A DNA stretch of 64,000 nucleotides, taken from Methanomicrobia archaeon (GTDB lineage Archaea > Methanobacteriota_B > Thermococci > Methanofastidiosales > NM3). The position numbers and the translations under genes were made by a program. The notes beneath the pieces are model-generated. The model saw nothing but the letters and a program-made list of their open reading frames with translations, was not told the DNA's origin and did no database searches. Shown piece by piece: positions 45,552 to 49,426 of this stretch. Each line of letters opens with the position of its first letter. The first letter of the stretch is position 1. The stretch covers positions 94,713 to 158,712 of the forward strand of contig JAUVXU010000001.1 of the NCBI GenBank assembly GCA_030603445.1, given 5' to 3'.

Positions 45552-46094
45552 TTAGAATGAATGGAGAAAAACAAGATTTTCTTCAGTTAGGAAATGTACT
45601 GTCTTCTTATGTTTTACACTAAGGCGCACATCATTTGTTTCTATGATTTTCTCGACATCGGAAAACGCGTCAATAAGATTTTCATTCACGACCTCAAATG
45701 TTTTTTCTTTTCCCTTTGATTCTATTGCATTTATTAGGCATATGTCAAGAATTTCAGCTAAGATATTTTCATGTATTTTCTTGGCACTATAACCTCTTTC
45801 GCTTAACCTTTGATAAAGTGTTCGTGGGGGGCATCGCAAGATGATTATCATATCATTGTAGAACATTTCAGCATAATGGGAATCAATCACGGCATCATCA
45901 TAAGAACCAATATATGCACGCGCCATAGCAACGTCAATAACATCGGTGTCTTTGTCATCGTCTCGTTCTACAATCCAACCCCTCTCGTGGGCAAGGGCAG
46001 AGACATCCAGGTGGGGAATGTTCCTATCATTTGCTATACGTTTGGCTATTGTCGTCTTACCAGTTCCAGGAGTTCCACCAATACATATCCTCAT
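45552..46094 (-). CDS. AK6/Fap7-type adenylate kinase or kinase-like NTPase
   Basis: 180 residues. Walker A GGTPGTGKTTIAKRIA (residues 6-21), then IPHLDVSALAHERG and a lid-region IILRCPPRTLYQRLSERGYS fit the AK6/Fap7 branch of adenylate kinases, which in eukaryotes and archaea also serves small-subunit rRNA maturation. It uses ATP in the cytoplasm. Its start overlaps the end of the response regulator gene by four bases, so they are co-transcribed. Confidence 0.85.
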   Translation of the reverse strand: MRICIGGTPGTGKTTIAKRIANDRNIPHLDVSALAHERGWIVERDDDKDTDVIDVAMARAYIGSYDDAVIDSHYAEMFYNDMIIILRCPPRTLYQRLSERGYSAKKIHENILAEILDICLINAIESKGKEKTFEVVNENLIDAFSDVEKIIETNDVRLSVKHKKTVHFLTEENLVFLHSF

Positions 46095-46912
46095 TTTCTT
46101 TTTCCACCCATGTATTCTCTCATTTCTTTTATGAAGAGTTCGAGTTTGTTGAAATGCAGTTCTGTCATTGGTTTAGGATGGGCAATATCATTTCGTATAT
46201 GATTGAGCTCTATTAGTCTAGCCTTTATCCATCCTATGTTGATAAAGTAGGGTTCGAATACATTTCTCCAGTTGTCAACACCCTCAAATTCATTCTTGTA
46301 AAGTATTATTGGCACGTAAAATGAGAAATCTGAGTAAAATAGGAGTGGCATCGTTATTTTCTTGCGCAGTTGTGCATTTGTTCTGCGTTGTTCGCATTTT
46401 GTTTTCACATAAGGAGGAATGCCGTTATCCCACCATTCGTTCCCATAATACTTATTAAGTGTTTTTTGTAGGAAAATGTTAAACTCTTCTTCAAAGGAGG
46501 ATAGCAGTTCATACGCTGCAGCATTGCTGTGGCTCTTCTTCTTTTTATCTTGTTTTGATAGTATGTTTTTGACAGCTGTTACGACCTCGTCTTTGCGCAA
46601 CGGCTTGTTTATAAGGTAGTCTTCAGCCCCGCTTCGCAACGTCTGAACAGCAGTTTCTTCGCTTCCATATGCAGTAAGCACTACTATTGGAATATCGGGG
46701 TCGTGTTCCTTGACTCTTTTTAATACCTCAAGGCCACTGATCTTTGGAAGCATTAAATCCAAGAGTATGAGGTCTGGTCTTTCTGAGAATGCCTTCTCCA
46801 AGGCTTCTTCCCCGTCTTGGGCGGTGATAATATCATAGTCTTCTCCAGCAAGAAATGCTTTAAGCAGTTTGATATTATCTGGCGTGTCATCAACTATGAG
46901 TATCTTTTTCAT
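46091..46912 (-). CDS. Response regulator with a HEPN-like output domain
   Basis: 273 residues from the ATG at 46912 (MKKILIVDD); the longer frame reaches into the kinase gene. Receiver domain residues are all present: D8-D9, phospho-acceptor D52 (LLDLM), T80 and K103. After a Lys/Ser linker, residues 130-265 form a helical domain with EPYFINIGWIKARLIELN and R240-N-D-I-A-H245, matching the R-x4-H signature of HEPN domains (Swt1-like group). HEPN proteins are often RNases or nucleotidyltransferase partners, so this output may act on RNA or protein rather than DNA. It overlaps the histidine kinase gene by 23 bases. Confidence 0.75.
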   Translation of the reverse strand: MKKILIVDDTPDNIKLLKAFLAGEDYDIITAQDGEEALEKAFSERPDLILLDLMLPKISGLEVLKRVKEHDPDIPIVVLTAYGSEETAVQTLRSGAEDYLINKPLRKDEVVTAVKNILSKQDKKKKSHSNAAAYELLSSFEEEFNIFLQKTLNKYYGNEWWDNGIPPYVKTKCEQRRTNAQLRKKITMPLLFYSDFSFYVPIILYKNEFEGVDNWRNVFEPYFINIGWIKARLIELNHIRNDIAHPKPMTELHFNKLELFIKEMREYMGGKRK

Positions 46913-48893
46913 TATTTGTCTCCTCCTTTTGAGAAATGGGAAGCGTAAATACGAATTTGGACCATTCATTCATTTTGCTTTCTACCCATATCTTTCCACC
47001 AAGCATTTCAACGTACTTCTTGGTGATAGCAAGCCCAAGCCCTGTTCCTTCAAAGTCCCGTGTATCTGTTCCATCTATTTGACGGAATTCGTCAAAGATG
47101 ACTTCAAAGTCCTTTTTATTTATCCCGATCCCTGTATCAGAAACTTCTATTTTCAAATAATCTTTATTGTCATCATAATATGATACTGTTGTTTTAACTA
47201 GTCCACCTTCTTTATTAAATTTGATGGCGTTTGTAAGAAGATTTATCAATATTTGGCGTAATTTGGTCTTATCTACTTTTATTTCTGGAATTATATCACT
47301 TTCAATTACCATAGTAATGTTTCTGTCTTTGGCAATAGGCGTCATAAGTTTGTATACTCTTCTAATGAGTTCATCTAACTTCACTTTCTGATACACTACT
47401 TCCATCTTGTTTGCCTCTATCTTGGAGAGATCAAGCATATCATTTATCAATTGAAGAAGATTTTCGCTGTTTTTTAGAATGGTCTGAAGGTAATCTTGCT
47501 GTTCGTCAGTAAGATTTTCTTCGTCTAGAAGCACATCACTAAAACCTATAATGGCGTTGAGCGGTGTGCGTAGTTCGTGGGATATGTTTGATACGAACTG
47601 CGATTTAAGCCTAGATGCTTCCTTTGTTTGCAAGTTGGCCTCACGTAGTTCTTGAACGAGTGCATTTAGGCGTTCATTTGCTAATTGTAGCCTTCTGGTA
47701 CGTTCTTTTACCTTATCTTCTAATATAGTATAGGAACCCTGTAATTCTTTTCCCATCTCGTTGAAAGATCTTGCCAAAAATCCAAGCTCATCATCCGAGG
47801 GTATGTTTATTTGATAACTCAAATCTTTCTTTGCAAGTTTCCTCGTCCCACGCACAAGTTCGCGTAGCGGCCTAGTTATGGTCTGTGTTACCATAATGGC
47901 GGCGATAATAGATACAAAGATGGCAACGACTATAAGTAGTATAAATATATTGGTGAATGATTCAACATTGGAAAATACCACATCTCTTGGTATTACCTCA
48001 ACAAGAACAAGGAATTCGTCTTTATTATTTGGATCAATGAATACTGGGGTGTATGTGATAATCCAATTTTTTTGATCTGTTAGTGTCCCAGATTCACCGG
48101 ATATGATATTTTTATCTCCAGATAATACAAATGTGGCTATCTCCACTATTTCACCAGTTTTTATGTCTTCTCCTACTCTATGGGCGAGATATACGTTTGT
48201 ATTTGAGATTAAAAACAGAGAAGATCGCTTCTTTGGTGTGTCATTCAAATCAAATGAATATTTAACTGGATTTAAGAAGAATTCAGCTGACATAGTGGTC
48301 ATGATTATTCCTCTATTGTTTCCAAGTGTATCAAATACAGGGGTGGCATAGGTTACCAGTGTTGTTTTTGATGTGGGAGAAGTTGATGATACAGTAATGT
48401 AGCTTTGATCATTCTCGAGCTTCATAGTTTCAAGGAAGTACTGTTGCGATGCAACGTTTGTAAGTTCATCATAAGGTTTATTAAAAAATGATAATCCGTC
48501 CCCCTCGATACATATAATTTCGTTACCATTCGCATCTATAAAGGCAATTTTTTCATATATCTCTCTGCTTTCACAAAATATGAGAAAATGTTCCTGGAGT
48601 AGTTTGCGCCATCTTTCTATCTCTGACGTACTGTGTGTGGCCTTTGCAAAAAAATAATCTCTTATGGCCGGACTTTTCGAAAGAAATATCACGTCGCTTT
48701 CATTATAATTTATAAAGTCATATATCTTCTCTGCCGACGAAAAAAGATCAAATTGAGTATTCTCAAGTGTTATTGCTTCAAATGACTGCGTTGCAAGATT
48801 TATGGAATAAAATCCTGCAATTGTAATTGGTATAACAGATATAAGGAGGAATGTGATGATTAGTTTATGCGAAATACGAGAAAATATGCGCAT
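46890..48893 (-). CDS. Membrane sensor histidine kinase
   Basis: 667 residues. Transmembrane helix (about 11-31), an extracytoplasmic Cache-like sensor (35-310), a second helix (about 315-336), a HAMP domain (338-385), a coiled coil, HisKA with phospho-H439 (SNISHELRTPLN), and a HATPase with N555 (N box), DTGIGI (586-591) and GTGLGLAI. It senses an external signal and phosphorylates the overlapping response regulator. The ligand is unknown. Confidence 0.92.
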   Translation of the reverse strand: MRIFSRISHKLIITFLLISVIPITIAGFYSINLATQSFEAITLENTQFDLFSSAEKIYDFINYNESDVIFLSKSPAIRDYFFAKATHSTSEIERWRKLLQEHFLIFCESREIYEKIAFIDANGNEIICIEGDGLSFFNKPYDELTNVASQQYFLETMKLENDQSYITVSSTSPTSKTTLVTYATPVFDTLGNNRGIIMTTMSAEFFLNPVKYSFDLNDTPKKRSSLFLISNTNVYLAHRVGEDIKTGEIVEIATFVLSGDKNIISGESGTLTDQKNWIITYTPVFIDPNNKDEFLVLVEVIPRDVVFSNVESFTNIFILLIVVAIFVSIIAAIMVTQTITRPLRELVRGTRKLAKKDLSYQINIPSDDELGFLARSFNEMGKELQGSYTILEDKVKERTRRLQLANERLNALVQELREANLQTKEASRLKSQFVSNISHELRTPLNAIIGFSDVLLDEENLTDEQQDYLQTILKNSENLLQLINDMLDLSKIEANKMEVVYQKVKLDELIRRVYKLMTPIAKDRNITMVIESDIIPEIKVDKTKLRQILINLLTNAIKFNKEGGLVKTTVSYYDDNKDYLKIEVSDTGIGINKKDFEVIFDEFRQIDGTDTRDFEGTGLGLAITKKYVEMLGGKIWVESKMNEWSKFVFTLPISQKEETNNEKDTHS

Positions 48894-49015
48894 TGATTCA
48901 CAAAGTGATTTTTTTATATTAAATCTTTCGGTATCGTGGGCTTGAATACAAATTTTCTATTTTTTTTAAAAAGAGGTAGGCAATATTTTATATGTTTAGA
49001 CAGAATTTTTTACAC

Positions 49016-49426
49016 ATGCATCTCCTGTTGCTTGCGTGCTCACAAAAGAAAGTGAATACAAAAGATGCGCTTCCGGCAATTGAACTTTATGATGGTCCGG
49101 CATACAGGATTGTTAGAAAGATGGGAAGGGAAGGTAAAATTCCAAACTATTTAGATATTTATATTGTTTCTGGCAAGTATGGCCTTATTCCTTCTTGGCA
49201 GAAAATAAATACTTATGATCAGAGATTGACATATGATATCATCGTTAAGACTGGTGCACACGCAAAACTTAGGGAACTGCTCTATTTGCCCTATCAACAG
49301 GTGTTGGCGAATATGGGAAAAGAGTATTTGTCTTATTTTGAGGATATTTTGGGTGGAGCTATTTTAGTAAAAGGAAGAATTGGGGAAAAAAATTCCCTAA
49401 TGAAAAAATGGCTTTTGCAACTTTGA
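49016..49426 (+). CDS. DUF6884-type protein
   Basis: 136 residues from the ATG at 49016; an ATG at 48992 lies within the probable TATA box (ATATTTTATATG, 48983-48994), so the shorter, near-leaderless start is preferred. LLLLACSQKKVNTKDALPAI and IYIVSGKYGLIPSWQKI match the DUF6884 pattern, related to the YaaA/TGT-like proteins thought to handle modified nucleic acids. Function not established. It converges on the secreted gene at 49427 with no gap. Confidence 0.65.
   Translation: MHLLLLACSQKKVNTKDALPAIELYDGPAYRIVRKMGREGKIPNYLDIYIVSGKYGLIPSWQKINTYDQRLTYDIIVKTGAHAKLRELLYLPYQQVLANMGKEYLSYFEDILGGAILVKGRIGEKNSLMKKWLLQL

Follow-up and report, generated by a model that had tools for sequence, protein, structure and literature searches.

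A conserved archaeal two-component system in which the response regulator carries a predicted HEPN output domain

The minus strand of the window (the whole 64,000-nucleotide stretch of DNA that was analyzed) encodes a sensor histidine kinase, designated here HK, followed by a response regulator, designated RR, in which a receiver domain (REC) is joined to an HEPN domain by a variable linker (Table 1). The RR reading frame starts with an ATG at position 46912 and its stop codon ends at 46091; an open reading frame entered from 46969 is the same frame with a longer upstream start. The RR start falls within the HK frame, and the resulting overlap of 23 nucleotides agrees with an earlier note on this DNA, which had described a Cache-type histidine kinase overlapping a response regulator. 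HK has an N-terminal transmembrane segment, a Cache-type extracellular sensor, and HAMP, HisKA (SHELRTP) and HATPase_c domains. Matches of HK to HAMP, HisKA, HATPase_c and HK_sensor_dom_bact are all above cut-off, yet its Pfam match to dCache_1 (6.6e-10) is under the cut-off for that family. The DUF6884 (YaaA-like) gene divergent from HK matches the PADLOC candidate PDC-M57A (1.3e-7).

Table 1. Positions of genes, domains and other features at the locus
Feature	Position	Strand	Basis or remark
AK6-like nucleotide kinase	45555..46094	-	NCBIfam PRK03839 'putative kinase' 1.2e-31, below cut-off
Response regulator (RR), REC + HEPN_Swt1, 273 aa	46094-46912	-	Pfam, ortholog alignment
HEPN domain, residues 133-269	46106..46516	-	Pfam, structure model, alignment
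R240-N-D-I-A-H245 motif of HEPN domain	about 46178-46195	-	
Variable linker, residues 119-132	46517..46558	-	ortholog alignment
Receiver domain, residues 1-118	46559..46912	-	Pfam, ortholog alignment
Receiver residues 99-104	46601-46618	-	
Sensor histidine kinase (HK), 667 aa	46890-48893	-	Pfam/domain matches, orthologs
Possible archaeal BRE/TATA element CGAAAGATTTAATATAAA	48905..48930	-	~30 nt before HK start; candidate, read from sequence
DUF6884 protein	48992-49426	+	

The N-terminal part of RR matches the Pfam family Response_reg (PF00072, 1.7e-30) and has the residues of a two-component receiver, namely D8, D9, the phospho-acceptor D52, T80 and K103. The C-terminal part matches HEPN_Swt1 (PF18731; 2.9e-7, 31.2 bits against a cut-off of 27.5) and includes the motif R240-N-D-I-A-H245, as anticipated in the earlier note, which had read an R-x4-H motif in a Swt1-like context. 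HEPN was the sole output match for RR in the Pfam scan, which found no DNA-binding domain of the HTH or wHTH type, and assignment of RR to the DNA-binding OmpR/PhoB, NarL or NtrC types was rejected on this ground. The REC-HEPN architecture of RR is nearly certain. Two minor features of the receiver are that it has one extra residue before the conserved lysine (YLINKP) relative to the nearest solved receivers, with I101, N102 and K103 invariant across all orthologs, and that it also matches the PADLOC profiles for SduA (8e-10) and PDC-M60B, which suggests that receiver-like domains are present in those defense proteins.

The HEPN C-terminal domain was found in 17 of 115 genomes of the class, all of them inside the window's own order, while four genomes of that order had no match for it; the REC-HEPN system is common in the order and not universal. 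Complete REC-HEPN regulators could be read and aligned from 14 of the 17 genomes, which belong to families f1, f2 and f3, and a fifteenth (G014), in which a contig end truncates the regulator gene, was left out of the alignment. RR and the kinase are present as one copy in the 14 genomes. These orthologs are 50-77% identical to RR from the window, and all of them keep D8, D9, D52, T80 and K103 in the receiver and R240, N241 and H245 in the HEPN domain unchanged. The conservation of R240 and H245, which the earlier note had proposed to check, thus extends to every aligned ortholog, and the motif takes the form RN[DE]xxH. Invariant columns make up 36% of the HEPN domain versus 42% of the receiver, so the invariance of R and H is by itself modest evidence. 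Based on these alignment counts, the HEPN domain is nearly as conserved as the receiver, which would favor a housekeeping role over that of a fast-evolving toxin. The linker has no invariant column among the 14 sequences, and its length varies by up to 6 amino acids among families.

HK lies immediately upstream of RR at every sufficiently long locus in the three families, with frames that overlap by 4-23 nucleotides in most orthologous loci and otherwise abut, and the HK domains were confirmed in two of these loci (L047 and L049). Judged from sequence, HK and RR appear to be a cognate pair that is conserved as a unit. The earlier note had also coupled the AK6-type gene to the operon, and the start of this gene does overlap the RR stop by 4 nucleotides (ATGA), but the coupling was found only in the window's own family, f1 (L044-L046), and other genes follow RR in f2 and f3. 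Since it adjoins RR in one family only, the AK6-like gene was rejected as a partner and is probably outside the two-component system. With HK upstream at all of these loci and the AK6-like gene only in f1, the functional unit is therefore most likely the kinase plus the regulator.

Relatives of the HEPN domain also occur on other architectures. In family f4 (two genomes) the domain is on a different N-terminus, with neither a receiver nor an adjoining kinase. The f4 proteins (L053:7385-8656 and L054:172-1449, both on the minus strand) have 423-425 amino acids and a C-terminus of the same HEPN subfamily with 49-51% identity; their N-terminal 280 residues have no recognized Pfam domain and a sole, weak PDB match to MarR (E 0.8). 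Genome G009 of family f3 has no REC-HEPN match and encodes a GmrSD_N domain joined to HEPN_Swt1 (L041:566-3274, minus strand), which is a defense-type architecture. A set of 34 distant HEPN open reading frames was drawn from f4, G009 and about 1,090 bacterial genomes sampled from three phyla. R-x4-H is retained in 33 of the 34 by pattern count, 15 of which were checked in an alignment, and none of the 34 has a receiver according to a profile that did detect other receivers of the same genomes. One further gene, L065:1462-3342 (plus strand), joins a HEPN_Swt1-like N-terminal part, which scored under the cut-off in the open frame that was scanned, to a downstream NB-ARC ATPase, and adjoins an open reading frame resembling a type I restriction specificity subunit.

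An AlphaFold2 model of the HEPN domain alone, obtained with a 13-row alignment, has a pLDDT of 91.5 and a pTM of 0.85. When 304 candidate PDB chains were realigned to this model, the C-terminal domain of yeast Swt1 ranked highest (Z 7.8, 3.0 A, 104 residues), followed by the abortive-infection RNase AbiF in complex with its ncRNA (Z 7.4) and then by the AbiA HEPN region, Csm6 and the annotated archaeal HEPN protein AF_0298. The best HEPN rows have Z scores of 6-8, and a Z below 13 between helical bundles may reflect a common helix arrangement. Foldseek returned no significant match for the HEPN model (best E 2.3), a fold search with the full-length RR model returned receivers only, and PDB sequences searched with a profile of the HEPN alignment yielded no relative. 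Since the Foldseek scores are not significant, the structural evidence is supportive and not decisive, and the sequence profile outweighs structure as evidence for HEPN. The Pfam match and the realigned AlphaFold2 model both predict an all-helical HEPN-like fold for the output domain, so that neither of the two outcomes named in the earlier note as refuting its reading, a fold other than HEPN and unconserved R240/H245, was seen.

HEPN RNases function as dimers with the arginine and histidine at the dimer interface, and receivers often alter their pairing when phosphorylated. We consider it slightly more probable than the converse that HK and RR form a two-component system whose output is directed at RNA, in which phosphorylation controls pairing of the HEPN domains and hence RNA cleavage. 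The Cache domain of membrane-bound HK would sense an extracellular ligand, whereupon HK would autophosphorylate and hand the phosphate to D52 of RR, as the domain identities and conserved residues suggest. Phosphorylation would then alter receiver pairing and, via the loose linker, bring two HEPN domains together or misalign them, such that RNA cleavage is turned on or, less likely, off. The variability of the linker leads us to favor proximity control over a rigid signaling helix. Cellular RNA is the probable target, for instance tRNA or a restricted set of mRNAs, and its cleavage would exert growth or metabolic control. The architecture, the HEPN family membership, the conserved motif and the pairing of kinase and regulator are established by the analysis, and from them we infer catalysis, the gating by dimerization, the direction of the switch and the RNA target. 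RNA cleavage by the HEPN domain appears likely from its motif, as RNxxxH fits the catalytic pattern R-[N/H/D]-x3-H that is tied to RNase activity. In AbiF from C. difficile, the equivalent R202 and H207 of RNQCAH are required for toxicity and lie at the modeled dimer interface (PMC12373285).

Alternatively, the HEPN domain could be a module for RNA binding, protein binding or dimerization and not an enzyme, with phosphorylation controlling binding of RNA or a partner as in the ANTAR regulators. This alternative is unlikely in our estimation. In its favor, AbiA has an intact R-x6-H but was without RNase activity in vitro, and its HEPN domain served dimerization (PMC11077055), and the HEPN domain of eukaryotic Swt1 is regarded as inactive (PMC3710099). 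The slow evolution of the domain here, at about the conservation of the receiver and unlike that of typical toxins, is also in keeping with a binding module. The invariant R, N and H in canonical form, together with the R-x4-H of the distant relatives, are more easily explained by catalysis.

A defense or abortive-infection switch, in which HK senses infection or envelope damage and RR degrades RNA to arrest the cell, seems improbable. HEPN_Swt1 relatives do occur in defense-type architectures (the GmrSD and NB-ARC fusions) and there is a match to the PADLOC candidate PDC-M34B (1.1e-17), but regulator and kinase are conserved together as a single copy in 14 genomes, no obvious defense island surrounds the HK-RR loci examined, and neither the phage collection nor the viral contigs had a match. 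That the C-terminal domain is instead a helical domain unrelated to HEPN, serving in DNA binding or as another output, with a fortuitous HEPN match, is very improbable. While the Foldseek result would be compatible with this, the curated Pfam family matched above cut-off in 15 genomes (14 REC-HEPN regulators and the GmrSD fusion in G009; best ortholog 1.6e-11), tblastn against plasmids found proteins annotated 'Swt1 family HEPN domain-containing protein' down to 1e-7, and HEPN proteins fill the top structural rows. The match moreover exceeds chance because 14 orthologs have invariant R240, N241 and H245.

RR shares with the Abi2/Swt1 HEPN clade (PF18731; AbiF/AbiD; PADLOC PDC-M34B) the RNxxxH motif, the all-helical fold and a family-level sequence match. 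Members of the clade have been described as stand-alone proteins or as fusions to PIN, AAA+/DUF499, TM, STAND or restriction domains, whereas in RR the HEPN domain is the output half behind a receiver that has the residues for phosphorylation and is paired with a cognate kinase; classification of RR as a stand-alone HEPN RNase of the AbiF/AbiD type was rejected, as it is fused to REC and paired with HK in 14 genomes. ANTAR regulators (AmiR/NasR/EutV) share with the scheme proposed for RR a two-component output that acts on RNA and not DNA. Unlike the HEPN domain of RR, the ANTAR domain is small and helical, binds RNA as an antiterminator and has no nuclease motif. The CARF-HEPN RNases (Csm6/Csx1) are also signal-controlled dimeric HEPN RNases, but they are gated by cyclic oligoadenylate, in contrast to the phosphotransfer proposed for RR, for which activity is predicted from sequence. 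Other archaeal regulators, including HalX, MetOD1-5 and NitrOD, likewise have lineage-limited outputs on REC (PMC5847659).

The lone receiver mention in a 2013 survey of HEPN domains refers to proteins carrying a receiver in place of HEPN, unfused (PMC3710099), HEPN and Swt1 are absent from the main text of a 2018 census of archaeal two-component systems (PMC5847659), and a full-text search of open-licence papers found no REC-HEPN response regulator described before. What is new is the HEPN domain as output of a response regulator, the HEPN_Swt1 family and response regulators per se being known. There is about an even chance that this is the first two-component system with an RNase output, in which receiver phosphorylation directly gates an HEPN ribonuclease by dimerization without a transcription factor.

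Most archaeal response regulators lack a DNA-binding output, and their mode of action is an open question (PMC5847659). RR has a conserved output with predictable chemistry and three named residues, which makes its mode of action testable in vitro. A signal from outside the cell may be turned straight into the cleavage or binding of RNA; if the domain is active, a conflict-type RNase would have been recruited as a reversible signaling output, and the proposed mechanism would let an archaeal lineage with mcrA exert post-transcriptional control by cutting RNA. The genome has mcrA and 12 receiver domains, and the host is an mcrA-bearing, probably methane-producing archaeon that is likely to belong near Thermococci and Methanofastidiosa. 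'NM3 Acherontia' has been named as one of the lineages for which methyl-reducing methanogenesis is predicted or shown (PMC9723798), and the regulator at locus L018, from the MAG NM3, is identical in sequence to the regulator open reading frame of genome G017, which is from the same genus as the window.
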